Part shown: piece after piece, positions 1-12,883 of the stretch
Layout of the letters: each line of letters begins with the position of its first letter
Position numbering within the stretch: position 1 is the first letter of the stretch
Assembly (NCBI GenBank): GCA_022561415.1
Contig: JADFRH010000029.1
Location: 1-12,883, forward strand
DNA length: 12,883 nucleotides
Direction of reading: 5' to 3'
Origin: Planctomycetota bacterium
Lineage (GTDB): Bacteria > Planctomycetota > Phycisphaerae > UBA1845
Position numbers and translations under genes: made by a program
The notes under the pieces: model-generated
What the model was told of the DNA's origin: nothing
What the model saw: only the letters and a program-made list of their open reading frames with translations
Databases searched by the model: none

Positions 1-2139
1 CACCAGTTTTAAATTGAATTTGTTGGCGATGGCCTGCCCGGCATGCGGGTTGTTTTTGTCTATCAACGAATAGATTGTATCCAGTAGTTTTTTTGTTTCA
101 ACCGGCTTTGTCAAGAAAGCATCAACACCTGCTTGTTTGGATTGCTTGATGGCATCGGTCGTAGCATTAGCGGTTAGCATAATGATTGGAATTCTGTCAC
201 GGCCGGTTTTCATGAACCGATAAATCTTTACTGTTTCAATTCCTCCCATTACCGGCATATACATATCCATGATGACGATGTCATAATCTTTCTTGTCGAT
301 ACAATCCAGCACCTTCTCTCCATTATCCACGATGTCGACAGTATGCCCGGAATACTCAAGTATCTTCCGGATAACTTTCTGGTTGGTTGGATTGTCCTCG
401 CCGACAAGAATATTCAGATGCGAATTTGTTGCTGAGTCGGACTGCAGGTCAACAAGAGCAGTGACATTATCATAATCATCCGTCTCAAGAGTAGTTGCGT
501 GTAATATATTAAAGAGTAATCTTTTTTCCAGCGGTTTGTTTAGTACGCAAAAATATCCTGCAGCAAGCAGGCGCGCATGATTATAAGAAGAATCATTTCC
601 TATAAGAACGAGATTGGTGTGCTTGATATGAATATTGTCCGATATCTGCTCTGCAAACGAGGCAGCATCTATTTCCAGACTTCCATCATCAACCAGCACT
701 ATGCTATAGGGGGCATGGGTTTTAACCGCCGTAATGAGTATTTTTTTTACATCAGTACTGGTCGCGGCATATTGCCAATCCAGTCCCCAGGTTGACAGAT
801 GTTGTTCAAGTGATTCATCCCTGGATCCGGAAAGGATCAGGATGCGGGGTTTATGGGATAACCAGTTGGGTCGATATGTTTCGGTGCTTTCCTGTTGCCG
901 CATAAATGTCAGTTCAAACCAGAAAGTACTGCCTTCATCAGCCTGACTGACTACACCCATTTTCCCACCCATCAGTTCTACCAGATTACGGGCGATAGAT
1001 GTACCCAGACCGGTGCCGCCATAGATCTGACTGATTGACTGATCAGCCTGGGTAAATTTGTCGAAAATCTGTTCCTGTACTTCTTCACGTATGCCAATAC
1101 CGGTATCTATGACTTCAAACCGTAGATGTGCATACTGATGCTCAATATTAACAGTTGAAATATTGACTTCAATACCGCCCTGCTCGGTAAATTTACTGGC
1201 ATTACTGATGAGGTTGATCAGCACCTGGCGTAGATGTTGTTCATCACCTACCAGATTATATGGCGTATCAGGTGTAATATGCAGATTGCAATTCAGTCCT
1301 TTCTTCTCTGCTAATGGGGCCATCATTCTTACAGTCGATTGCACTGTTGCATATAGATCGAAATCCCGTGCCTCTATTGTAGTTTTACCGGCTTCAATTT
1401 TTGATATATCGAGTATATTTTCAATCAGTGAAAGCAGTGTTTTAGCAGAGGCCTGAATGGTAGATACAAAATCACGTTGTTCTGTATCCAGTTTCGTTGC
1501 AGTGAGCAAATCACTCATGCCAATGACACCATTTAACGGTGTGCGTATCTCATGACTCATGTTGGCAAGAAACTGACTTTTGGCAAGGTTTGCAGCCTTG
1601 GCAGAGTCCATGGCATTGTGAAGTCTGGAAATGAGCAATGAAACATATCCAGAGAGGACTATCAGGGTCAATAATAATCCATAACCAAGTATCTTTTGTC
1701 CCTGCCAGTATTCATTGTTGCCTAATACAATCAGAAATCCGATAACACTGCATAACGCACTGACAAAAAGATACTTGTTACCGTATCTGAAACCATTTCC
1801 AAATGTAACAAATAAATAAACGCCGAAAAGTGGTGCGCCAGTCTCACCGGTAGCAAGCATAGCGTAAGTACAGGCAGACATATCCAGGGTTAAACCTGTC
1901 AAGCGTCGAATGACATTCCTGCCCGTATCTAAATAAATCCATAAAAGAACGAAGAAACCAACGACTACATAAAGCGCGGAAATAAATATTATTTTGCTTT
2001 CAAAAGGTTGGTCGGTATTGATAAATAATATATAAGAGAGCCAGATCAGGCCGATAATAATTCTGACGTTGGCTTGCTCATGCTCGGTATCCAGGTGATC
2101 CAGCACCTTTCCGTGAATCTTTTTTATAAATGGGGCCAT
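1..2139 (-). CDS. rpfC: RpfC-like hybrid sensor histidine kinase (3' end cut by window edge)
   Basis: The frame is open from ATG at 2139 to base 1, giving 713 residues with no stop, so the C-terminus lies outside the window. Order: hydrophobic segments spread over residues about 27-171; HisKA with the phospho-acceptor His196 in SHEIRTP; HATPase_c with N309/N313 (N box), DTGIGI 345-350, FDKF 359-362 and GGTGLG 374-379; a degenerate receiver about 431-550; and an intact receiver about 576-695 with E581/D582, phospho-acceptor D625, T656 and K678. The charged N-terminus with EHEQA before the first membrane span resembles RpfC-type DSF sensors, which normally end in an HPt domain; that part is not visible here. 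The HD-GYP gene lies 38 nt upstream on the same strand, as in rpfG-rpfC pairs. Only a weak AGAAAG precedes the ATG. The codons are AT-rich, unlike everything right of about 2,690. The kinase call is certain; DSF as the ligand is inferred. Confidence 0.9.
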
Positions 2140-2177
2140 ATTACTTTCTGGAACAGGTGGTGCTTTCCTTTTTGTTG

Positions 2178-3770
2178 TTAACTGTTTTTTGTGTTAGCCA
2201 TTTCCACAGCGTGTTCCTGACAGGCAATAATCTCATCAAGCGTGTTAAACAGGGCATCAACACAATTTGGATCCAGTTGTCTGGTTTTCTGCCGGCTGAT
2301 TTCTTCAAGTGTCGCCTCCACTGTCCAGGACTGCTTGTAAGGCCGGGTGCTGGTCAGTGCATCAAAAATGTCAGCAGTAGTGACGATTCGCGCCTCCATC
2401 GGTATATCCTCGCCATGAAGACCCGTTGGATAGCCTTCGCCATTAAATCTTTCATGGTGATTCAGTGCAATAATCGCGCCCATCTTTAAATAGGGTGACG
2501 GACTGTCTTTAAGGATCTCGTGCCCTATGCTCGTATGGGTTTTCATTATATCCATTTCATCGGCATTCAAAGGGCCGGGCTTAAGTAATATTTTATCAGG
2601 AATCCCAATCTTGCCTATGTCATGCATGGGTGCAGCAATTTCTATAATCTCGCAGAAATCGGAACTCATGCCGAGTTCATCGGCGATGATCTGGCAGAGA
2701 TAGGCGACTTCCACGCTATGGCGCAGGACATTCTGCCCGTAGCTGGTGCGGAATTGGAGGCGGCCCATGAGATCGAGCGCCTTCTTGTGAACGCCGTTCA
2801 CCTTGGCTTCGAGCGCCGCCTGGCGTCCGAACTCGCTGATCTGCTCCTCGATTTCCTTTTCGGACTCGGCGACGACTTCCTCGATCCGCGTGGGGTGGAT
2901 GCGCCCGTCGCGCACGAGCTTGTCGAGCGAGCGCCGCGCGATTTCCTTGCGCACCGGATCGAAGCACGAGATCTGCACGATGCCGGGCGTGTCATCGACG
3001 ATCAGCGTGACGCCGGTCGTCTTCTCGAACGCGCGGATATTGCGCCCCTCGCGCCCGATGATGCGGCCCTTCATTTCGTCGGCGGGCACGTCCACGGTGG
3101 CGATGACGGTTTCACAGGTGTGCTCGGCGGCGTAGCGCTGGATGGCCTCGATGGTGATGTTGCGGGCCTTCTCGCGGGCGTTTTCCTTGGCGGTGGTGAG
3201 GATTTTCTCGACCATCTGGCCGGCTTCGTGCTCGACCTCCTGCTCGATGCGTTTGAGGCACAAGGCTTTGGCGTCATCGCGGGTGAGCTGGGAGACGCGC
3301 AGCAACTCGGCCCGCTGATCCGCGTAGAGCTGTTCGACCTGGTCCGTTTTTTCCGCGACGGCCTTCTCCCGAGCCGCCACGGACTGCTCGCTGGATTCGA
3401 TCTTGCGCTCTTTGGTGGAGAGGACGTCCAGCTTTTTGTCGAGCACGTCCTCGCGTTTTGCGATGCGGCGCTCGGAGGCCTTGATCTCGTCCCGCGTCTC
3501 GGCGGTCTCGCGCTCGAATCGTTCCTTCACTTCGAGATGCTTTTTTTGTACGTCGACGTCGGCGGCCTTCAGAAGCTCCTCGGATTTCCGTTTCGCGTCC
3601 GAAAGCAGTCGATCGGCCTCGGCTTGGCGGCTGGCCTGAGTGGCCCGGGCCCGAGAGCGCTCCCACCCCATCGCGGCAACACCGCCCACAGCGGCTGCCA
3701 CAAACAGGAACAGCACCAGCGAGCCCGCGCTCTCGACAATCGCGGCGAGCAGAAAGGTTTGCGGTCCCAT
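2178..3770 (-). CDS. rny: Chimeric frame: RNase Y N-terminal part joined to RpfG-like HD-GYP C-terminal part
   Basis: The frame encodes 530 residues from ATG 3770. Residues 5-34 form a membrane anchor, about 40-200 a charged coiled coil, and about 220-280 a KH domain with [12 protein letters not shown] at 235-246. [15 protein letters not shown] at 344-358 is the RNase Y HD start, with metal ligand H351. All of this is standard for RNase Y, the membrane-bound endoribonuclease of mRNA decay. After IADELG (362-367) the protein becomes an RpfG-type c-di-GMP phosphodiesterase domain: [14 protein letters not shown] from 379, [11 protein letters not shown] at 438-448, and ALTSTRPYK near 471-479. H351 to H383 is 32 residues, the HD-GYP spacing; RNase Y has about 29. 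The RNase Y C-terminus and the RpfG receiver are missing. The codons change from GC-rich to AT-rich at the joint. ATG 3770 was chosen because the in-frame extension to 3881 is unlike the family and the anchor follows directly; no clear Shine-Dalgarno is seen. Both halves are recognised with confidence; their union is probably artificial. Confidence 0.8.
2645..2695 (-). other. Composition and domain breakpoint inside the rny/rpfG frame
   Basis: Reading the minus strand, codons are GC-ending through the RNase Y part. They become AT-rich from about 2,648 downward (ATT ATA GAA ATT GCT GCA). The protein family changes between residues 361 and 374. The helix ending IADELG is shared by both HD families, so the exact joint cannot be placed inside it. 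GCCGATGAACTCGGC at 2670-2684 is a 5-bp inverted repeat with a 5-nt loop sitting in the joint. Such short palindromes and conserved stretches are plausible places for assembly or amplification chimeras. The mechanism is inference; the discontinuity itself is visible. Confidence 0.8.
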
Positions 3771-3959
3771 TTTTTCATCCAGTGTTTTTGCATTAGTTCG
3801 CTGTGGAAAGGGCGATCCAACTGGATGCCCACGCCGGGTGGCGGCGATGGATGGCAGGGGCTGGGCGTGTGAACATTCCACGACCGGCCGATGGCATAGG
3901 CCGACTTTTCGACGGCTGGAAGGCTGGAAGCGTCAGGGTCGGGGCTCGTACGAAACTAC

Positions 3960-4005
3960 GAGGATCGAAAGATTATTGATTACGGATGATCAGTCGGCGA
4001 TCCTC
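3960..4005. repeat. 8-bp inverted repeat around an AT-rich 30-nt core
   Basis: GAGGATCG at 3960-3967 is mirrored by CGATCCTC at 3998-4005. The 30-nt core includes AT-rich GATTATTGATTA and the palindrome TGATCA. It lies about 190 nt upstream of the rny start. It could be an operator or a long-loop RNA stem. The arms are perfect, but one such pair in a GC-rich intergenic region may occur by chance. Confidence 0.35.
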
Positions 4006-4142
4006 TAAAAGAGCGAACCCTTGCACTCGCTACTCGCGAATGCTCCCTCGCCGTATGGTCTCAGGTCGAGGCGCCCTCCGCGCAAAACGACCGTGACTCT
4101 CGGCTGGTTCCGCCAAGATGCACATCCATCGTCACCACAACA

Positions 4143-4172
4143 TTAACATTCTACGACGGGGCGGATTATACG
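4143..4172 (+). promoter_or_regulatory. Weak sigma-70-type promoter candidate for the 4325-6648 gene group
   Basis: TTAACA at 4143-4148 matches TTGACA at five of six positions. After an 18-nt spacer, TATACG at 4167-4172 matches TATAAT at four of six. It is correctly oriented and would give a leader of about 145 nt before the GTG start. The match is modest, so this is only a candidate. Confidence 0.25.
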
Positions 4173-4324
4173 GTTCGGCCGGCCGGGACGCCACTACCAA
4201 AATCCGCACGTCGTCGGAGCGGACTCCCGCCCCGGGAACCGCGGGGAGATACCCCTTGCGATCGGCGCCGTTGCGGAATACGATCTCATGGTGAGCCAAG
4301 TGTGGCTCGCGGGATGTTGTTTGA

Positions 4325-4816
4325 GTGTCCAGCGCGAACGAGACCGACGTGCGGCCTGATTTGCCCAAACCCAACGCGCAAACCGTGCATTGGATCATCG
4401 CCGTGCTGCTCGCGGTCATCGCCACGGCGCTTTGGTCGCGCCCCTCCACGAACCTCATCCCGGCCGCGTTCGGACAGGGGCAGCCTTTGGCCGGTGCCCG
4501 CGGTGTTTACGCCTTCACCGGCCAGCTCGACCACAACCGCTACGGTCTGTTCATGCTGGACATCGACCAGGGGACGATTTGGGCGTACGAAATCGAAAAC
4601 TCGGGCGGGACGCGCAAGATGCGTCTAATTGCTGCCAGGACATGGATTTACGATCGATACTTGCAGGACTTCAACAGCGCCTCACCTAGTTTTCGCATGG
4701 TTCAGGAACTCGTTGCTCTACAGCGGACTCAGGCCGAGCCCGACGCGGCGGCCGACGACGACCAGCAGGGTGACGGCCGGACGAACGCGAGCGACCCCGA
4801 TCGGCCGGGAGGCTGA
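4325..4816 (+). CDS. Conserved hypothetical single-span membrane-anchored protein
   Basis: 163 residues. The GTG at 4325 is the first possible start because an in-frame TGA stands immediately before it. A short polar N-terminus is followed by one hydrophobic segment (about residues 21-38, TVHWIIAVLLAVIATALW). Next comes a small soluble domain (about 55-135) with the phrases MLDIDQGTIWAYE and MRLIAARTWIYDRYL, which suggest a beta-strand-rich fold that would sit outside the cytoplasm. The C-terminal 28 residues are acidic and low-complexity. I recognise the general type from planctomycete genomes but know of no function. It lies 32 nt upstream of the HTH protein gene and is probably co-transcribed with it, so the two may work together at the membrane. 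The reading frame is well supported by codon composition and by this arrangement; the function is unknown. Confidence 0.7.
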   Translation: MSSANETDVRPDLPKPNAQTVHWIIAVLLAVIATALWSRPSTNLIPAAFGQGQPLAGARGVYAFTGQLDHNRYGLFMLDIDQGTIWAYEIENSGGTRKMRLIAARTWIYDRYLQDFNSASPSFRMVQELVALQRTQAEPDAAADDDQQGDGRTNASDPDRPGG

Positions 4817-4837
4817 TCGCCGGGCCGTACTTTGAGC

Positions 4838-4842
4838 AGGAG
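4838..4842 (+). promoter_or_regulatory. Shine-Dalgarno site for the HTH membrane protein
   Basis: AGGAG ends 6 nt before ATG 4849. It fixes the start, and the HTH domain begins directly after that Met. Confidence 0.7.
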
Positions 4843-4848
4843 TGATCA

Positions 4849-5745
4849 ATGGGCAAGCCGTTCTATTCGCTGGACGAAGTGCGAGACATTCTCAACAAGA
4901 ACGTCAATGCCATCCGGGATTTGGTGCGAGACGGCACCCTGCGCGAGTTTCGTGACGCCGGAAAGGTCTTCTACAAAGGCGAGGACGTAGACAAGCTCGC
5001 CGGCGGCGGGGCATCCGACAAGAGCGGCACCGGCGAGATCGTGCTCGAAAAGGCCGACGAAGAGGACGAGCTGCCCTCGCTCGCCGATTCGGGCGGCGGG
5101 ACCAGCGTTATCGGCCTCGAGGCCGTCGATGACGAGTCCGACGAGAAAGAGAAGGAAGACACGGTAATAACAGCCAGCGGCATAGGCGTGTTCGACGACG
5201 ATGAGTTGGAAATCGACGCCGATCCGATGGCGAAGACGCAGATCACGACCGGCGCCACCGCCGACCAGATCTCCCTGGAAGGCAGCGGCAGCGGGTCGGG
5301 CCTGCTCGACCTGACCCGCGAAGCCGACGATACGTCGTTGGGGGCCGAGCTGCTTGACGAGATCTACCCCGGCGAAGACGATGCCACCGAGTCCGTCGAT
5401 GCCGAACCGCCCGTCGAAGCCGCCGCGACCAAACCCGACGCGGAGGAAGAGGCCGACGCGGCGCTCGAGAGCGCGGAAGCGGGTGCCATCGTCCTGCCGG
5501 TCTCCGTGGCCGCCGGCGACCCGAGCGAGGGTGTGTTCTCCGGGCTGCTGGTCGGCTCGCTGATCCTGCTCGGTCTGTCCGGGGCCGTGGCGGCCAGCGT
5601 CTTGCAAGGGTATCTGCCCGACTACGCCGCGTATTTGAGCGACCGGTTTCTGATCGTCTTCCTCCCCGGGGCGGCCGGAGTCGTCCTCGTATCCCTGCTG
5701 GTCGGCTGGTTCCTCGGAAAGGCCCTCGCTACGCGTCGCCGGTAA
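4849..5745 (+). CDS. MerR-like HTH protein with acidic linker and two C-terminal membrane spans
   Basis: 298 residues. Residues 1-50 form a MerR/excisionase-type winged helix: FYSLDEVRDIL, then AIRDLVRDGTLREFRDAGKVFY and EDVDKL. Residues about 52-225 are an acidic, Gly/Ser/Ala-rich, probably disordered linker holding a more ordered island at 150-175 (GLLDLTREADDTSLGAELLDEIYPG). Two hydrophobic spans follow at about 229-252 and 267-291, ending in a basic tail. The protein would therefore keep its HTH domain in the cytoplasm while anchored in the inner membrane. I recall similar proteins in planctomycetes, where the island motif is conserved, but know of no experimental role. The HTH may bind DNA or may be a protein-interaction module. 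It lies 32 nt after the small membrane-protein gene and 66 nt before the lipoprotein gene. Domain layout is certain; function is not. Confidence 0.85.
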   Translation: MGKPFYSLDEVRDILNKNVNAIRDLVRDGTLREFRDAGKVFYKGEDVDKLAGGGASDKSGTGEIVLEKADEEDELPSLADSGGGTSVIGLEAVDDESDEKEKEDTVITASGIGVFDDDELEIDADPMAKTQITTGATADQISLEGSGSGSGLLDLTREADDTSLGAELLDEIYPGEDDATESVDAEPPVEAAATKPDAEEEADAALESAEAGAIVLPVSVAAGDPSEGVFSGLLVGSLILLGLSGAVAASVLQGYLPDYAAYLSDRFLIVFLPGAAGVVLVSLLVGWFLGKALATRRR

Positions 5746-5798
5746 GATCGCTTCGGCAATCCGAATCGAGCCGCTGTTTCGTCGGCTGAGAATCGTCC

Positions 5799-5805
5799 AA
5801 GGAGG
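5799..5805 (+). promoter_or_regulatory. Strong Shine-Dalgarno for the OmpA-like lipoprotein
   Basis: AAGGAGG stands 6 nt before ATG 5812. It is the best ribosome binding site seen in the window and settles the start, which also gives a proper lipoprotein signal. Confidence 0.8.
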
Positions 5806-5811
5806 GCGGCG

Positions 5812-6648
5812 ATGCGCCATTTCAACCGCATCATTGCTTTGTCGTCGGCTCTGTGGTTCGGCGGATGCGCTGTGCCGAACCAGCAGCGAGAGCTTGAGTA
5901 TCGGCTGACGCAGGCCGAAGGGCGGCTGGCTGACGCGCAGAATGCCACCCGCGACGAACGCGCGCGGACCGCCGCATTCGAGCAGCGCATGCGGGCTCAA
6001 AAACGCACCTGGGAAACCACCAAGGCCGAGAACCAAGCGCTCAACGAGCGCATCAAACAACTGACCGATCGTCAGGCGAAACTCGTCGCGGCGGTCGAAG
6101 CCCGTGCGGAGAAAGTTCCGACGCGCCCGCGCGTCCCGGCCTCGCCGCTGCCGGCGAACGTGGACCGGGCGTTGGCGGCCTTTGCGGAAAAGTACGGCGG
6201 GCGGGTCTGGTACGACCGGGGGCAGGGGGCGGTGAGCTTCGCCAATGATCGGCTGTTCTTAGCAGGCAGCGATGCGGTTCGTGCCGACGCGCATGCGGCA
6301 CTCGGCGAGTTGGCGAGCATACCCGTGCTTCCCGAAGCGCGCGGGCTCGAATTGATTATCGTGGGGCACACCGACGACACGGCGATCACGAATCCCGAGA
6401 CGCTCGCGCGGCACGCGACCAATTGGCACCTTTCGGTGCATCGCGCCATCGCAGTCAAGAACGTCTTGGTCGCAGCCGGTCTGCCGGAATCACGGATGGG
6501 AGTGATGGGCTTCGGCTCGGCCCGCCCGATCGGCGGCGACCGTGCCCGCAATCGGCGCGTGGAGATCTTCCTGGTTCGCAAAGGCGCGGTCCATTCCATG
6601 TCTCCCGTTCGGGCGTCCCCATCCTCACGCCAGCGTTCGCCGAGCTGA
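5812..6648 (+). CDS. OmpA/Pal-like peptidoglycan-binding lipoprotein
   Basis: 278 residues. A short basic-hydrophobic signal ends in the lipobox-like FGGC with the lipid-acceptor Cys19. Phe at -3 is a little unusual. Ala at +2 favours the outer membrane under the E. coli rule. Residues about 26-100 form an alpha-helical coiled coil (QRELEYRLTQAEGRL onward), then a Pro-rich hinge. Residues about 125-255 are an OmpA C-terminal domain with VGHTDD at 184-189, LSVHRA at 207-212, a GxGSxxP stretch at 233-239, and RNRRVEIFL at 246-254. D188 and R248 are at the expected diaminopimelate-binding positions. It probably links the outer membrane to the cell wall. It converges on the sigma-54 activator with 31 nt between stops. 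The last 20 or so residues are a Ser/Arg-rich tail beyond the fold. The family is sure; equivalence to Pal is not, because there are no tol genes here. Confidence 0.88.
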   Translation: MRHFNRIIALSSALWFGGCAVPNQQRELEYRLTQAEGRLADAQNATRDERARTAAFEQRMRAQKRTWETTKAENQALNERIKQLTDRQAKLVAAVEARAEKVPTRPRVPASPLPANVDRALAAFAEKYGGRVWYDRGQGAVSFANDRLFLAGSDAVRADAHAALGELASIPVLPEARGLELIIVGHTDDTAITNPETLARHATNWHLSVHRAIAVKNVLVAAGLPESRMGVMGFGSARPIGGDRARNRRVEIFLVRKGAVHSMSPVRASPSSRQRSPS

Positions 6649-6679
6649 GTTGGCGGTAGCGTCGGGGAATCTTGCGAAG

Positions 6680-7813
6680 CTATTTGGAGCGCGTCGATTG
6701 GGCGGTGCCGGCCTTGGCCGCGGCAGCGTCGGTCGAGTCGTTGCGGGCGCTCGAGCTCGAACTTGCGGTCCGGGTCGGCTGGGCGAAGTCATGCGGCGTT
6801 TCCCGGGCAGGTTTTGAAGTGTCCGACACGGGACGAGGAGCACGTCGATCGGTGGGGCGGGGAATGCGAAGCTTCGCGGACATCTGGCGCAAAACGTGGA
6901 CCGAAATCCCGAGTTGCCGGGCCGCGTCCTGAAAATTCCAATGGTTTTCGTGCAACGCGCGGGCCAGCATGAGCCGCTGGCAGAAAGCCAGCGACGTGAC
7001 GCTCTCGCCGTCCTCGGGTGGGACGAACCCGCCCACGACCTCGGTCGGCAGAACGCCGATATCGATCCGCTCGCCCTGCGACAGCAATAGGGCGCGCTCG
7101 ATCACGGACTGAAGCTCGCGCACGTTGCCGGGCCAGTCGTAGCTGATCAAGAGGGCCAGGGCTTCGTCTGACAAGCCGCTCTGGCGACTGCGATTTCGAC
7201 GAGCGATGGCCTCGAGCAGGTAGGTCGCGAGGGGGGCAATGTCCTCTCGCCGCTCGCGCAGGGCCGGCACGTGGATCGGAAACACGTTCAGCCGGTAGAA
7301 CAGGTCTTCGCGAAACTGGCCGCGCTGGGCCATTTTGAGCAAGTCTCGGTGGGTGGTCGCGATGATGCGGGCATCCACCTCGTAGGTCGCCGTGCCGCCG
7401 AGCCGTGAGAACGTGCGATCCTGCAAAATGCGCAGGAGCTTCGCTTGTGCCACGGCGGGGATGTCGGCGACCTCGTCCAAGAGGAGCGTCCCGCGGTGGC
7501 AGCGCTCGAACACGCCGGAGCGCGATTTGATCGCCCCGGTGAAGGCCCCGCGCTCGTGCCCGAAGAGTTCGCTTTCCAAGAGCGTGTCGGGGCAGGCGCC
7601 GCAATGGAAAGCCTGCATGGGCTGGTCGCGGCGCGGGCTGAGCCGGTGAATGTAGTTCGCCACGAGCTCCTTGCCGGTGCCCGTTTCGCCGGTGAGCAGG
7701 ACCGTGGCCCGGGTCGGCGCGACGCGCTTGCAGAGGTCGATTACGCGGCGCATCGCCCGGCTGGTGCCGATGATGTTGAAGTCCTTGCCGGGATGTTTGG
7801 ACAGATCGGCCAT
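6680..7813 (-). CDS. Sigma-54-dependent AAA+ transcriptional activator without sensor domain
   Basis: 377 residues from ATG 7813. The AAA+ domain starts almost at once: GTSRAMRRV at 16-24, Walker A GETGTGKE at 42-49, the sigma-54-contacting GAFTGA at 89-94, Walker B TLLLDE at 109-114, arginine-finger region REDLFYRL at 168-175, and WPGNVREL at 227-234. A Fis-type HTH follows at about 280-316 (LMLARALHENHWNFQDAARQ onward). All catalytic motifs are intact, so it should remodel sigma-54 RNA polymerase. Two things are odd. There is no receiver, GAF, PAS or FHA domain, so it resembles PspF-type activators controlled by a partner or by abundance. Residues 319-377 are also an added Ser/Ala/Arg-rich, probably disordered tail. 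It lies 135 nt downstream of the ABC ATPase gene on the same strand and may share its transcript. Its target promoters are unknown; no convincing -24/-12 site was found in this window. Confidence 0.93.
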   Translation of the reverse strand: MADLSKHPGKDFNIIGTSRAMRRVIDLCKRVAPTRATVLLTGETGTGKELVANYIHRLSPRRDQPMQAFHCGACPDTLLESELFGHERGAFTGAIKSRSGVFERCHRGTLLLDEVADIPAVAQAKLLRILQDRTFSRLGGTATYEVDARIIATTHRDLLKMAQRGQFREDLFYRLNVFPIHVPALRERREDIAPLATYLLEAIARRNRSRQSGLSDEALALLISYDWPGNVRELQSVIERALLLSQGERIDIGVLPTEVVGGFVPPEDGESVTSLAFCQRLMLARALHENHWNFQDAARQLGISVHVLRQMSAKLRIPRPTDRRAPRPVSDTSKPARETPHDFAQPTRTASSSSSARNDSTDAAAAKAGTAQSTRSK

Positions 7814-7948
7814 TGCAGGAGTTCACGGCGACGTTGCCCACGGAGCGCGACCCCGCGCTCGGGACTCGGTTGCGTTTAGTGTCCTGTGATGCGTGCGATT
7901 TGTCTAGCGGTTCGTCTCACTACCATTCGAGGGATGCGTTGCGGTTTG

Positions 7949-8842
7949 TCATTCCGCGCGCAGCGCTCCATCATGCAAGAGCAGCGTGCGGTCCGCGTGC
8001 TGCGCGATGCCGGGGTCGTGAGTGACCATGACGATCGTCTGGCCTTCGCGGTGCAGCTCTGCGAACAATGCCATCAGTTTCGCGCCCGCCTCGGCGTCGA
8101 GGTTGCCGGTGGGTTCGTCCGCGAACAGGATGCGCGGTTTGTGGATCAGGGCCCGTGCGATGGCGACGCGCTGCTGTTCGCCGCCGGACAACTCGCTCGG
8201 GCGGTGTTTCAGGCGCTGGGCGAGGCCGACGCGTGTGAGGACGTCGATCGCCTCACGCCGGGCTTCGGTGCGGCGAGAGAGCCACTCCAGCAGCGAGCAC
8301 CCGACCTGGCGCGTGATCAGCACGTTTTCCAAAACGTTCAGCTCCGGCAGCAGGTGATAGAACTGAAACACGAACCCGACTTGGCGGCGGCGCATTTGAA
8401 CACGCTCACGCTCGTTCAGGTTGGTGATGAACATTTGCACGCCGCTGATCACACAGATGAGAAACAGGGCGCCCGCCAGCACGAAGCTCCCCAAGACTAG
8501 CGGCAGGACGAGAAACAGGAGGCTGCTGAGCAGGATCCCGGGCAGCACGATGATCCATGTCGCCCAGGCCAGAACGCGAAGCAACGATGCGCCTGGCGTT
8601 CCGCGTTTCGGTTCGGCTTGGACGATCGTCTCCCCGTCGAATGCGACCTGCCCGCTGTCCGGCACGTCCAGCGCTCCGAGCAGGTGCAACAGCGTGCTCT
8701 TGCCGCTGCCGGACTTGCCCATCACGGCGACGAATTCGCCGGCCTCGAGCCGTAAGCTGCAGCCGCGCAGGACTTGCAGCCGGTCGGAGCCCATCCGGTA
8801 GGCTTTGTGAAGGGCCTGCGCGACGAGCAGCGGGCTAGCCAT
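7949..8842 (-). CDS. lolD: LolD-like ABC ATPase with a hydrophobic insertion between Walker A and Q-loop
   Basis: 297 residues from ATG 8842. This start overlaps the permease stop by 8 nt (ATGGCTAG), implying translational coupling, and removes an unlike 44-residue in-frame extension. Motifs: Walker [10 protein letters not shown] 42-50, Q-loop [12 protein letters not shown] with Q160, signature LSGGEQQ 218-224, Walker B ILFADEP 238-244, and switch H275 in [19 protein letters not shown] is characteristic of the LolD/MacB group, which powers lipoprotein or envelope-substrate release from the inner membrane. Residues about 77-145 form an insertion absent from ordinary LolD, where the DG...R...R linker is about 15-20 residues. 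About 50 of these residues (88-137) are strongly hydrophobic and could cross the membrane two or perhaps three times. The frame stays open and all motifs on both sides are intact, so it is not a frameshift product. The ATPase call is sure; the lipoprotein substrate is inferred from family and from the neighbouring permease. Confidence 0.9.
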
Positions 8843-10466
8843 AGCGGAGGGCCTCCACGGGGTGCATCGTGCCGGCCCGCCGCGCCGCGGCGAAAGCGCC
8901 GACGATGGAGGTGACGACCGCGACCGTGCCGACGCGGATGAGGTCGACCGTTCGGGCGGTGTTGGGGATTTCATCGAACGAGTAGACCGACCGGTCCCAG
9001 ACTTGCAGCGCGGGGTGGATCCAGATCAGGGCTTGCTGGAACTCGTTGATGTACTTGACGAAGTAGAACCCGCCGACGAGCCCCAGGACGCTGCCGACGA
9101 TGCCGATGGCCGCGCCGTAGCTGACGAAGATCAGCGAGACGCCGGCGGACGATCCGCCGATGCTCTTGATGATGCCGATGTCGCGCGTCTTCTGCATGAC
9201 GATCATGTAGAGAATGCAGAGCGTCAGCACCGTGGCCACGAGCGAAATGGTGCCGAAAAGGATCGTGACCAGGATGCGCTCCTTCTCGACCGGGGCGATG
9301 ATGTGCATCTGCGATTCTTCCCAGGTCATGGCCTCGATGCGGTCGACAAGGTTGCGTTCGAAGTCGTCCAGCCGCGCGTCCTGCACATAGGATTGGTACA
9401 GCTCTTGCAGCCGGTCGCTGAGCTCCCCGGCGTCGACGCCGTCGGCGATCTTGACCTGGATCTGCGAGCAACGCGCCGGTGCCGTGCCGCCGCCTTCGGC
9501 GCGCTCGGCTTCGTCCATGTAGATCAGTTTTTGCAGCAAATCGAAGTCGCAGTAGACGTGCTGTGAGTCGATCTCGTGAATTCCGGTGCGTGAGTCGTCT
9601 GCGTAGCGAAAGGGCTGCTTAATGGCCGTCGTGTCGAACTGGCTGGTAAGCAGGGCCAGCAGCACCTCGCAGCCGCGCGGATAGAAGAAGTGCCTCTTGT
9701 AACGCCCGTCCTTGTCGCGCTTGGCGACGATCTCGCGGCCGATGATCAAGCCGGGATAGGCGTTGCCGGTCTCGTCGGCTTCGCCGGTTTCGGGGTTGAG
9801 CTCGAACACGCCGGGGATCGGCGGCAGGCCCTGCTCGCGCAGAAAATCGTCGAGAAGCGTCTCGGTGGCGTCGTCGGGTCCGGCGAACTCCTCGCCGTTG
9901 TGCGCGTTGCGCCACGCCTCGCAAAATTGAGCCAAGGCGTCGCGGAAGGGCTGGAACAGCACGGGCCGTAAGATGTCGCCCTCATGCCGGCCATCGGAAT
10001 CGTAGACGGGCATGGGGTCGGCGGTCCCGAGCCGCGGCTGGCGCTGCTCACCCAGGTGCGTCGTCCCCGGGTAGTACTTCTGGTAGAAGAGACTCTCCTC
10101 GAACGCGTTGACCCGGTAGGTGGCCTCGAGCCGGATGCCGACGACGCGCACCAGCGCGGTCTGCTCGGTCTGCGGGAAGCGCAGCAGGCCGTAGGAGTAG
10201 ACGACGGGCGTGGCGTCGATGACCTCGGGCCAGGCCTTGATCTCGGCGATGAAATCGTCGTAGAGCGGGAAGCCCTGGTACATCGCGTTGTCGACCACGA
10301 TGTCGCCGAGCAGCCCGCGGGCCTTGAACTTGAGTTTGTCCAGAAACCCGCCCATGACCGACATGACGACGATGATCAGAAAGGTGCAGAGCGCGACGGC
10401 GGCGATCGCAAAGTAGGCGATCACTCCGCTGCGAAGATAGCGAAGCGTGAGAAAGAGCTTGTACAA
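8835..10466 (-). CDS. LolC/LolE-like ABC transporter permease (FtsX/MacB superfamily)
   Basis: 543 residues from TTG 10466. MYKLFLTLRYLRSG is the usual N-terminus for this family, and AAGGA lies about 9 nt upstream. One membrane span (about 14-37) is followed by a large periplasmic region (about 40-395). Three C-terminal spans follow at about 398-423, 444-470 and 510-530, with the cytoplasmic coupling loop MQKTRDIGIIKSIGGSS at 424-440. It ends [17 protein letters not shown], the conserved tail of the FtsX fold. E. coli LolC/LolE are about 400-415 residues, so this protein has roughly 130 extra. The excess lies in the periplasmic region, which includes acidic stretches at about 145-235. Only one permease is present, so it would act as a homodimer or with a partner encoded elsewhere. 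The ATPase gene overlaps its stop. The expected role is moving lipoproteins or other envelope cargo from the inner membrane; the substrate is not proven. Confidence 0.88.
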   Translation of the reverse strand: MYKLFLTLRYLRSGVIAYFAIAAVALCTFLIIVVMSVMGGFLDKLKFKARGLLGDIVVDNAMYQGFPLYDDFIAEIKAWPEVIDATPVVYSYGLLRFPQTEQTALVRVVGIRLEATYRVNAFEESLFYQKYYPGTTHLGEQRQPRLGTADPMPVYDSDGRHEGDILRPVLFQPFRDALAQFCEAWRNAHNGEEFAGPDDATETLLDDFLREQGLPPIPGVFELNPETGEADETGNAYPGLIIGREIVAKRDKDGRYKRHFFYPRGCEVLLALLTSQFDTTAIKQPFRYADDSRTGIHEIDSQHVYCDFDLLQKLIYMDEAERAEGGGTAPARCSQIQVKIADGVDAGELSDRLQELYQSYVQDARLDDFERNLVDRIEAMTWEESQMHIIAPVEKERILVTILFGTISLVATVLTLCILYMIVMQKTRDIGIIKSIGGSSAGVSLIFVSYGAAIGIVGSVLGLVGGFYFVKYINEFQQALIWIHPALQVWDRSVYSFDEIPNTARTVDLIRVGTVAVVTSIVGAFAAARRAGTMHPVEALRYG

Positions 10467-10469
10467 AGG

Positions 10470-10485
10470 CTGAAATCCTTTTCAG
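10470..10485 (-). promoter_or_regulatory. Hairpin presenting the permease Shine-Dalgarno in its loop
   Basis: On the minus strand CTGAAA, AGGA, TTTCAG forms a perfect 6-bp stem with AGGA as the tetraloop, followed by CCT and the TTG start. The AAGGA ribosome binding site is therefore split between the top of the stem and the loop. It might expose or restrain initiation from the weak TTG codon. The geometry is visible; any regulatory effect is inferred. Confidence 0.45.
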
Positions 10486-10851
10486 TCTCGCTGGCCGACG
10501 CGCGAGGTGCGCGACCGCGACCACGCTCACTTATGCAGCGCGCCGGGCCGCCCCGAGGTTCAATCGCTTTTCGGGAAGGTGCGAACGATTCCCGTCACCC
10601 GGCCGCTCGCGCCCGCGGTCCGCGTCGCGACACGATACTCGATCCGGGGCCGTTCGTCGGCGCCCGGCCCGATTCGCTGCTGGAATCGCGCGCCGGCTCG
10701 CGAAAGGCGACAATCGTGGGCCCGTCGAAGGGGTCGGGCTTGTCGCCTTGCGAACGTGGAATGATCGTCGGCGACTTGTTGCCCGGCAAACGCCGTTTCC
10801 TGCGCGAATTTGGTTAGGCAACCGGCGATGCCGATGGGTATAATGTGTGAG
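10486..10851. other. Intergenic interval between permease and hicB genes
   Basis: These 366 bases separate divergent genes. No gene was recognised. A minus-strand frame from TTG 10789 to 10595 (64 residues) has GC-ending codons and the sequence PTIIPRSQGDKPDPFDGP, but it has no family resemblance and no ribosome binding site, so it is not called. The right end holds the hicB -10 element. The permease promoter must also lie here, but none stands out. Confidence 0.5.
10839..10844 (+). promoter_or_regulatory. Consensus -10 box giving a nearly leaderless hicB transcript
   Basis: A perfect TATAAT ends 7 nt before the ATG at 10852, so transcription should start at about 10851-10852, on or next to the start codon. 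No good -35 hexamer is seen at 16-18 nt; TTAGGC at 10814-10819 is weak with a 19-nt spacer. There is no usable Shine-Dalgarno, in keeping with leaderless translation. Confidence 0.5.
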
Positions 10852-11073
10852 ATGCCACGGGAACTGACGATCATCTACGAGCAAGGCGCCGACGGCTGGT
10901 GGCTGACTACGATTCCCGAGGTGCCTGGTGCGTTCTCGCAGGGCCGCACGAAGGACGAAGCTCGAGAGAACGTCATCGACGCACTGTCGGAATTGATGGA
11001 AGCGCGGCGTGAACTGGCCCTGAAAAAGCGCGGCGCGGACAGCGATGTAGAATCCATCCCGTTGCCTTCCTAA
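10852..11073 (+). CDS. hicB: HicB-family antitoxin-like protein
   Basis: 73 residues from ATG 10852. The sequence reads PRELTIIYEQGADGWWLTTI, PEVPGAFSQGRTKDEAREN, then VIDALSELMEARRELAL. This is the degenerate RNase H-like HicB fold: a strand, a turn with the conserved W, the P(E/A)xPG(A/C)xxxG core, and a helix. The short charged C-terminus has no HTH or ribbon-helix-helix domain, as in the small HicB subgroup. HicB proteins bind and neutralise HicA mRNA interferases. In-frame upstream codons back to TTG 10810 are possible starts, but they overlap the consensus -10 box, so ATG 10852 is preferred. The only nearby HicA gene is on the opposite strand, facing this one with 96 nt between stops. 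Family membership is fairly sure; pairing with that HicA is inferred. Confidence 0.8.
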   Translation: MPRELTIIYEQGADGWWLTTIPEVPGAFSQGRTKDEARENVIDALSELMEARRELALKKRGADSDVESIPLPS

Positions 11074-11095
11074 CGCTTCGCCGCAAAAGTGTAGC

Positions 11096-11113
11096 ACAGC
11101 CGCCCCCGGCTGT
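11096..11113. terminator. Hairpin between convergent hicB and hicA; possible bidirectional terminator or REP-like unit
   Basis: ACAGCCG, CCCC, CGGCTGT is a perfect 7-bp stem with a 4-nt loop, placed between two converging stops. A run AAAAGTGTAGC precedes it and TATT follows, but there is no clean T-run on either side, so termination is uncertain. I recall similar CACAGCCG...CGGCTGT sequences scattered in planctomycete genomes, so it may instead be one copy of a dispersed palindromic repeat; only one copy lies in this window. Confidence 0.5.
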
Positions 11114-11169
11114 ATTCTCGCGGTACCCGCGGCGATTTCGGGCACACAATTCATTTTCGCGGCGGACTG

Positions 11170-11364
11170 CTAACGCTCGGCCGGAGCGTCAATTCCAAGT
11201 TCCTTGCAGATCTGGCGTACGAGCATCGAGTCGATCTCGTTGTGCCTGGGCACGGGGGCGGTTTGATCATTGGCCGAGTTGGCATAGATCGAATGCCGGC
11301 GTCCCTCGCGTATCAAGTTGCAGCCGTTCGCGGAAAGGTGCCGAAGCAGCTTCGTTCGTTTCAT
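11170..11364 (-). CDS. hicA: HicA-family mRNA interferase toxin
   Basis: 64 residues from ATG 11364; an in-frame TTG at 11379 would add five residues. KLLRHLSANGCNLIREG, then RRHSIYANS, VPRHNEID and RQICKELGI follow the HicA double-stranded-RNA-binding-like fold: helix, three strands, helix. H24 in GRRHSIY is the expected catalytic histidine, so the toxin looks intact. HicA cleaves mRNA, often during translation. It stands 87 nt after the vapC-like stop on the same strand, so it may be co-transcribed with vapBC. There is no hicB on its own strand. The only hicB-like gene is convergent, which is unusual because the two normally form one operon. No strong ribosome binding site was found. Confidence 0.82.
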   Translation of the reverse strand: MKRTKLLRHLSANGCNLIREGRRHSIYANSANDQTAPVPRHNEIDSMLVRQICKELGIDAPAER

Positions 11365-11451
11365 GATTGCCGCGCTCAAGGGTCTCGATGTAGTCGGCGC
11401 CGCGGACCGGCGGGATTGCCTTTCGACCCGGCTGTCGGTCGCGTGATCGTC

Positions 11452-11853
11452 CTATTTGAGCAAGGCCGCGAATCCGGCCTGTTCGAAGTGATGATCGCCC
11501 GTCAGCGCGTCGCGGATGCCGCGCTCTTCCATGACGACAAAGGAGATGCAGTCGGTCAACGACCAGTCCTTGTCCGGGCGTTGTTCGTAGAGCTCGACGC
11601 CACGATGAAAAAGCGCGTCGTCGGGCGGCACGATGGTCACACGATCGTCGCCGCGCAGGACTTTGGACAGTCGCACAAAGGAGCGTCGTCTTGCCGCGAT
11701 GCGGAACGCGTTGGCGACCTCGACGAGAATCCACGCCGTTGTGACCTGCCGAGCCACGACACCGGCGGTCAGCTCCCGCGCCCGCTGGTGGGCTCCATCG
11801 GCAGGATTCAGCAACGCGATGTAATAGAAGCTGTCGGCGAAGCACTCGTTCAA
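11452..11853 (-). CDS. PIN-domain (VapC-like) ribonuclease toxin
   Basis: 133 residues from TTG 11853. ECFADSFYYIALLNPADGAH begins the PIN fold with D7. E45 lies in WILVEVANAF. D101 lies in WSLTDCISFVVM and D120 in ALTGDHHF. These four acidic residues form the usual Mg2+ site, so the enzyme should be active as a site-specific endoribonuclease. The start is decided by the antitoxin gene: TTGA is shared as the last four bases of that gene and the start of this one, and the protein then begins exactly at the PIN motif. Upstream in-frame sequence is Arg/Gly-rich antisense noise. Together with the preceding gene it forms a VapBC-type module. The family is sure; the RNA target is unknown. Confidence 0.88.
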   Translation of the reverse strand: MNECFADSFYYIALLNPADGAHQRARELTAGVVARQVTTAWILVEVANAFRIAARRRSFVRLSKVLRGDDRVTIVPPDDALFHRGVELYEQRPDKDWSLTDCISFVVMEERGIRDALTGDHHFEQAGFAALLK

Positions 11854-12083
11854 TGTTTGGGACCGCCGTGCAGGTAATGGTCGTGGTTTCGCGCCAGATC
11901 GCTCGGCAAACCGGGCCCGGCGCTGCCGGCCAGGTCGAGCAGTTTTTTCGACAGGGCCTCCGCCGCGGCCTCTTCCTCCGACGCGGACAGGACGGGCTCC
12001 ACGCGCACCGCGGTACCATCCGGAAGCTTCGCGCCGTTCTCGAGCACGACGACGCCGTTGACCACTTTGCCCTGGTAAGTCAT
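11850..12083 (-). CDS. Antitoxin partner of the PIN toxin (VapB-like)
   Basis: 77 residues from ATG 12083. The N-terminus MTYQGKVVNGVVVLENG continues ALPDGTAVRVE-style strands (residues 18-30, KLPDGTAVRVEPV), giving a small swapped-hairpin-like beta domain. The C-terminus includes GLPSDLARNHDHYLHG, a recurring tail in antitoxins beside PIN proteins, likely the toxin-binding segment. ATG 12083 is preferred over ATG 12104 because GAGG lies 7 nt before it and the upstream ATG overlaps the promoter -10 box. Its TGA overlaps the toxin TTG by 4 nt, coupling their translation. It probably represses its own promoter in complex with the toxin, as is usual for such pairs. The pairing is well supported by position; the exact antitoxin class is less certain. 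Confidence 0.82.
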   Translation of the reverse strand: MTYQGKVVNGVVVLENGAKLPDGTAVRVEPVLSASEEEAAAEALSKKLLDLAGSAGPGLPSDLARNHDHYLHGGPKH

Positions 12084-12102
12084 TTGGCACCTCACTTCCA
12101 CC

Positions 12103-12108
12103 ATTGTA
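12103..12108 (-). promoter_or_regulatory. -10 element of the vapBC-like operon
   Basis: TACAAT on the minus strand (five of six matches to TATAAT) would start transcription near 12096. That leaves about 12 nt of leader containing the GAGG ribosome binding site of the antitoxin gene. No good -35 hexamer is visible, as might be expected for a promoter bound by its own antitoxin. Confidence 0.45.
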
Positions 12109-12184
12109 TCCGATGGAACGGGGAATCGATGTTTTGAATGTCGGAGGCACGCCTGCGCGACGGTTGCCAGAGGCTCAAGAAGTC

Positions 12185-12883
12185 TTATGGCTCTGACGCG
12201 TTCTCGGACCCTGGTCGAGTCAGGTCTCCGTTTGCCTCCTCCGAGAATTCTAGTGTGTCGCCGGGCGAGGCTGAGACTTCCGGCCGCTGAAGCGGGAACA
12301 GAATCACCTCGCGAATGCTCGTGCTGCCGGTCAGGAGCATGACCAACCGGTCGATGCCGATCCCCAGGCCGCCGGCGGGGGGCATGCCGTACTCCAGCGC
12401 CTCGACGAAGTCCTCGTCCATGACCGCCATGGTCTCGTCGTCCTCGCCTTTCAGCGCGCCGCCGGCCAGGGTGTCGCGCTGCACGGCCGGGTCGTTCAGC
12501 TCGGTGTAGGCGTTGCCGAGCTCCATGCCGTTGATGAAGGCCTCGAAGCGCAGCGCGACGTTGGGGTTGTCCGGGTGGCGTTTGGTCAGCGGGCAGAGCG
12601 GGGCGGGGTAGTCGAGCACGAAGCAGGGGTTGATCAGCTTCGATTCGACGTAGTGCTCAAAAAGCGCGTTGACGACGACCGGGTCGTCCATCCTCGATTC
12701 GTCAATCGTAATCGCCTTCTGCGCGCGCAACTCGCGGGCTCGATCCCGTACCTGACCGATGGATTCCAGATCGAAACCGACGTGCTCGGCGAACAGGTCG
12801 GCGTACTTGTGCCGCGGCCAAGGCGTCGAATAGTCGATCTCGCGGTCGCCGAACGCGATCTTCAGCGACCCGATCACCTCGCG
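12185..12883 (-). CDS. lysS: Lysyl-tRNA synthetase, class II, C-terminal part (5' end beyond window)
   Basis: The frame runs off the right edge, leaving 232 residues and TAA at 12185. It attaches lysine to tRNA-Lys in the cytoplasm. Diagnostic stretches of the class II catalytic core are DYPAPLCPLTK (91-101 of the fragment), RFEAFINGMELGNAYTELND (112-131) and motif 3 GGLGIGIDRLVMLLTGSTSI (171-190) followed by REVILFPLQRP. The anticodon-binding OB domain and motif 1 are outside the window. About 30 acidic, low-complexity residues follow the normal end at FPLQRPE, a modest C-terminal extension. The first in-window GTG (12877) is an internal valine, not a start. The vapBC-like promoter begins about 75 nt downstream. 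Confidence 0.95.
   Translation of the reverse strand, partial: REVIGSLKIAFGDREIDYSTPWPRHKYADLFAEHVGFDLESIGQVRDRARELRAQKAITIDESRMDDPVVVNALFEHYVESKLINPCFVLDYPAPLCPLTKRHPDNPNVALRFEAFINGMELGNAYTELNDPAVQRDTLAGGALKGEDDETMAVMDEDFVEALEYGMPPAGGLGIGIDRLVMLLTGSTSIREVILFPLQRPEVSASPGDTLEFSEEANGDLTRPGSENASEP

Follow-up and report, generated by a model that had tools for sequence, protein, structure and literature searches.

An in-frame RNase Y/HD-GYP hybrid reading frame on a planctomycete contig is very probably the product of a chimeric contig

The window analyzed here is a 12,883-nucleotide stretch of DNA covering contig JADFRH010000029.1 of the Planctomycetota assembly GCA_022561415.1. On its minus strand, an open reading frame (ORF) from 3770 to 2178 begins as RNase Y (N region and KH domain) and continues in frame into an RpfG-type HD-GYP domain. 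Starting from the ATG at 3770 and ending with the stop at 2178, it encodes a protein of 530 amino acids (P0001); an alternative upstream GTG start at 3881 gives a reading of 567 amino acids. The joint lies between residues 360 and 361 of P0001, at plus-strand coordinates 2691/2690. The features on either side of it are as follows.

1 to 2139, minus strand: 5′ part of an rpfC-like hybrid histidine kinase gene (HisKA, HATPase_c, and REC by Pfam), proteobacterial, truncated by the contig end and contained within the match to locus L002
2178 to 2690, minus strand: 3′ part of rpfG (HD-GYP domain; HD_5 by Pfam), proteobacterial, within the L002 identity that runs from 2690 down to 1; the intact L002 ORF also has REC
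2671 to 2690, no strand: the joint, a zone of putative micro-homology where both genes encode ADELG, placed by the abrupt loss of L002 identity and by sequence shared with rny of loci L027 and L051
2686 to 2714, minus strand: possible bridging stretch of a third rny allele, in which residues V353 and Q360 are not those of P0002
2691 to 3770, minus strand: first two thirds of rny, from its 5′ end through the RNase Y N region and KH to the start of HD (RNase_Y_N and KH_1 by Pfam), planctomycete, closely matching P0002
4325 to 5745, plus strand: two genes divergent from rny (4325 to 4816; HTH-like with TM, 4849 to 5745), normal planctomycete rny neighbors with homologs beside rny

In the 567-amino-acid reading, Pfam identified RNase_Y_N (56 to 254), KH_1 (262 to 317), and HD_5/HD (from 385). 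The RNase_Y_N and KH domains of an RNase Y are thus both present, and together with intact relatives of each part these matches bear out the preliminary description, which had named an RNase Y N-terminal part followed by an RpfG-type HD-GYP part. P0001 nevertheless scored 389.9 bits against TIGR03319, the RNase Y equivalog, under the cutoff of 454.35 and covering profile positions 3 to 367 of 514. The intact RNase Y P0002, at 655.5 bits, was above this cutoff. The RNase Y-type HD domain and C-terminal extension are missing from the hybrid: close identity to P0002 stops at the joint, and no match to P0002 from residue 376 on was found in the window. The ORF therefore resembles the Phycisphaerae type of RNase Y (rny, TIGR03319), of which P0002 is an example, in the N-terminal region and KH domain as far as residue 360, but has neither its HD domain nor its C-terminal end.

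The HD-GYP motif has been described as H...HD...H...HH...D with GYP (PMC8177086), and P0001 has H351, HD at 383, H412, HH at 438, and GYP at 446, the last Asp not being placed separately. His351 precedes His383 by 32 residues, a spacing to which the preliminary description had drawn attention and which recurs in the intact RpfG of L002 (H186 to H218); in intact P0002 the corresponding spacing is 29. Likeness to the RpfG-type response regulator c-di-GMP phosphodiesterases (REC plus HD-GYP; L002:5446-6543 and P0121) extends from residue 361 to the end of the protein and to the rpfC gene next to it, but the REC receiver domain is missing. Pfam found no Response_reg (REC) in the hybrid ORF, PF00072 is listed for intact RpfG P0121, and the REC part of the L002 RpfG matched the window only at 411 to 97, which is the kinase's own REC, with 25% identity.

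Close relatives of both halves were found in separate genomes, at the DNA level for the left-hand side and, for the right-hand side, at the protein level together with conserved rny neighbors. A scan of genome contigs with the fusion returned three loci. L001 had RNase Y as its best match, L002 matched residues 388 to 567 (567-amino-acid numbering), and L003 matched residues 183 to 561 with 31% identity. L002 is JADFPU010000027.1, titled 'MAG: Proteobacteria bacterium isolate B75T3L11', and window positions 1 to 2690 aligned to it without gaps, 2,645 of 2,690 bases being identical (98.3%). Above position 2690 this similarity was lost at once. L002 itself carries an intact rpfG-like ORF of 365 amino acids (L002:5446-6543) followed by an intact rpfC-like kinase ORF of 840 amino acids. 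Residues 361 to 530 of P0001 also agree, save for the last, with another intact RpfG, P0121, which has 18 member sequences. P0001 had six matches in the L002 genome (G001); five of them fall in the HD part, one covers residues 222 to 299 (the KH part), and the N-terminal region has none. Among 58 genomes of relatives of G001, DNA matches to the HD-GYP stretch were present in 11, near-identical in G001 itself and at 64 to 78% in the others. Because RpfG matches such as P0122 are so named, the source of the left-hand 2.7 kb was probably a gammaproteobacterium; the L002 record itself says only Proteobacteria.

On the other side of the joint, P0002 is an intact RNase Y of 532 amino acids encoded on a 13,308-base contig. 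The first 360 residues of P0001 and P0002 are identical at 354 positions, with none of the six differences falling within residues 48 to 352, and the two proteins diverge after the joint. The genome sets searched for this half were defined by the class of G002, the genome of L001, which is titled Phycisphaerae. P0002 had matches in 290 of 298 genomes of this class, a few of them weak, and none in the other eight (E ≤ 0.001). From these 298 genomes the 30 best-matching rny loci were compared, each with at most about 1.5 kb of sequence per side, and in the same nine of them, all from the Phycisphaerae class, homologs of both divergent genes lay beside rny. The HTH_17 match of the 4849 to 5745 gene fell slightly under the Pfam cutoff (25 versus 27 bits). 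Further from the joint, the LolD-like protein of the window has a counterpart, P0229, that shows a single difference and is encoded on a separate contig of 25,789 bases. Judged from rny, the two divergent genes, and the LolD-like gene, positions 2691 to 12883 look like ordinary planctomycete DNA.

The change of source is also visible in composition, as the preliminary description had remarked. GC content is 0.429 in 1 to 2690 versus 0.640 in 2691 to 12883, and third-codon-position GC, 0.92 before the joint, falls to about 0.5 beyond it. With each of the two left-hand training sets, a third-order Markov scan for a change point set the switch at 2649, which is 41 bases away from where the alignment breaks.

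The close relatives of both halves narrowed the joint from the interval of 2600 to 2760 first proposed to about 2670 to 2691, and upheld the earlier placement at an equivalent position of the HD fold, where both parents encode ADELG. The length of exact sequence shared by rny and rpfG was compared in the 30 rny loci over the tblastn-matched stretch. The longest exact match was 9 to 12 bases in 29 of them and 16 bases in L027, where it lies at the joint. The 10-base match of L031 is also at the joint, and in the other 28 loci the longest match lies elsewhere. The rny of L051, which was picked because of its pattern match, has 20 of the 21 bases of the joint sequence. This 21-mer was matched with at most one mismatch in five of 397 genomes of the G002 class; one of the five places is within rny (L051, one mismatch), the sole exact match (L054) is outside rny, and none of the 397 genomes yielded an intact rny that contains the 21-mer in full. 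It is plausible from these loci that an rny could share about 20 bases with rpfG, and we infer a shared length of about 16 to 21 bases in the rny of the strain sampled here. The intact rny of that strain was not found; the closest, P0002, has SVM rather than QII at the joint. The putative shared bases would be homologous codons, and for this reason the joint would be in frame and would keep the RpfG His spacing. An in-frame, structurally sensible joint is expected from micro-homology and is therefore no evidence of selection.

The window thus combines DNA of two source lineages, an abrupt break between them, intact relatives of both halves, and similarity at the joint. These observations strongly support, short of proof, the interpretation that the hybrid ORF arose artificially, in a chimeric contig drawn from two bacteria, and we consider this very nearly certain. 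A planctomycete (Phycisphaerae-like) piece of about 10.2 kb, with rny and its normal upstream neighbors, would have been joined to 2.7 kb of proteobacterial rpfG-rpfC. The crossing would fall where rny and rpfG, which are distant homologs of the HD superfamily, use almost identical codons for ADELG, and the passage from one genome to the other there could have been made by a short-read assembler on a shared k-mer or by a template switch during library amplification. The joining would have taken place in vitro or in silico, not in a cell, through either an assembler error or a chimera formed in the library or during amplification. Misjoined contig tips are often located at contig ends, and the left-hand piece, which runs to the contig end, would fit such a tip. 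Interspecies chimeric contigs that arise in metagenome assembly from k-mers common to several genomes have been described (PMC7299287). The window is like such contigs in that it combines two compositions and two source lineages, has its joint where the sequences are similar, and occurs once; its only unusual trait is that two homologous folds are joined in frame at matching points. The preference of the preliminary description for an assembly or amplification chimera is supported by the close relatives that each half has in a different source organism, and it was right to warn against treating the gene content left and right of the joint as that of one genome.

One alternative is a native fusion, in which a membrane-anchored RNase Y coiled-coil/KH protein had its HD nuclease swapped for a captured proteobacterial HD-GYP phosphodiesterase. 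Such a protein would be a single membrane-bound, RNA-binding enzyme linking RNA decay and c-di-GMP. The frame is open, the HD-GYP signature and the RpfG-like His spacing are in place, and residues 302 to 518 of P0001 align with the solved structure 4mcw; a hybrid joined at homologous positions may well fold, and an in-frame joint with correct ligand spacing would also be expected of a functional fusion. We nonetheless regard this as very improbable. Two protein searches were made, one with nearly the whole length and one with residues 305 to 425 across the joint, and among the 228 distinct proteins in the matches listed (the best 120 of each search) RNase_Y_N and HD_5 occurred together in one, P0001 itself, which is a single sequence from one 12,883-base contig; no second, independent protein of that architecture was found among them. 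The exact 41-base joint pattern gave no matches in viral_contigs, and in a limited search of the literature on RNase Y with HD-GYP or RpfG, the portions of the papers available held no report of such a fusion. A captured domain would also have kept its proteobacterial DNA, its GC content, and the rpfC that follows it at 98.3% identity, rny would be left without its own HD domain, and the protein falls under the RNase Y equivalog cutoff.

A recent event in vivo, in which recombination at micro-homology brought proteobacterial DNA into the rny of a planctomycete, or worked in the opposite direction, and left an accidental hybrid, is likewise highly unlikely. Micro-homology joints are also products of illegitimate recombination, and both flanks are biologically normal in look. 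Such an event, however, requires a recent transfer between phyla with 98.3% identity kept, it disrupts a gene matched in nearly every genome of the class, and among the matches listed it was seen on one contig only. A different proposal, compatible with the chimeric contig, concerns the path by which the joint was crossed: from an rny of type A, through a few tens of bases of another planctomycete rny (the [11 protein letters not shown] type), into rpfG. P0001 is the same as P0002 at residues 48 to 352; immediately before the joint, V353 and Q360 then stand in place of the I and S of P0002. SVM is found in P0002, P0003, P0005, P0006, and P0008, five of the seven best RNase Y matches (P0002 to P0008), and P0185 and P0217 carry [11 protein letters not shown] there. 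An exact match of 23 bases to window positions 2708 to 2686 occurs in the rny of two of the 32 loci compared, L028 and L041, but in the other 30 the shared stretch is at most 16 bases, and the two substitutions may be plain strain variation. The sequences hint that a path in the assembly graph passed through a third rny on the way, a possibility to which we give somewhat less than an even chance.

The chimeric contig, as the preferred explanation, carries a warning: distant homologs may share enough DNA at a conserved motif to join two phyla in frame, and a joint of this kind yields a believable new domain architecture. In the present case the hybrid has already entered the searched database as a protein (P0001).

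Several further features were observed in the right-hand part of the window. The LolD-type ABC ATPase at 7949 to 8842 (minus strand) was matched by Pfam and NCBIfam in two stretches, and by eye a hydrophobic, membrane-like insert of ∼50 residues lies between Walker A and the Q-loop region. In the relatives compared, this position is occupied by another hydrophobic insert (P0231) or the insert is absent (P0232, 251 amino acids); it is perhaps a variable insertion in planctomycete LolD. Small ORFs at 10810 to 11073 (plus strand), 11452 to 12150 (minus strand), and 11850 to 12104 (minus strand) are, by their look, what we take to be a HicB-type protein and a PIN-type toxin/antitoxin pair; no NCBIfam families were found for these three ORFs. 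At the far end, 12185 to 12883 (minus strand) encodes the C-terminal part of a lysine–tRNA ligase, truncated by the contig end.
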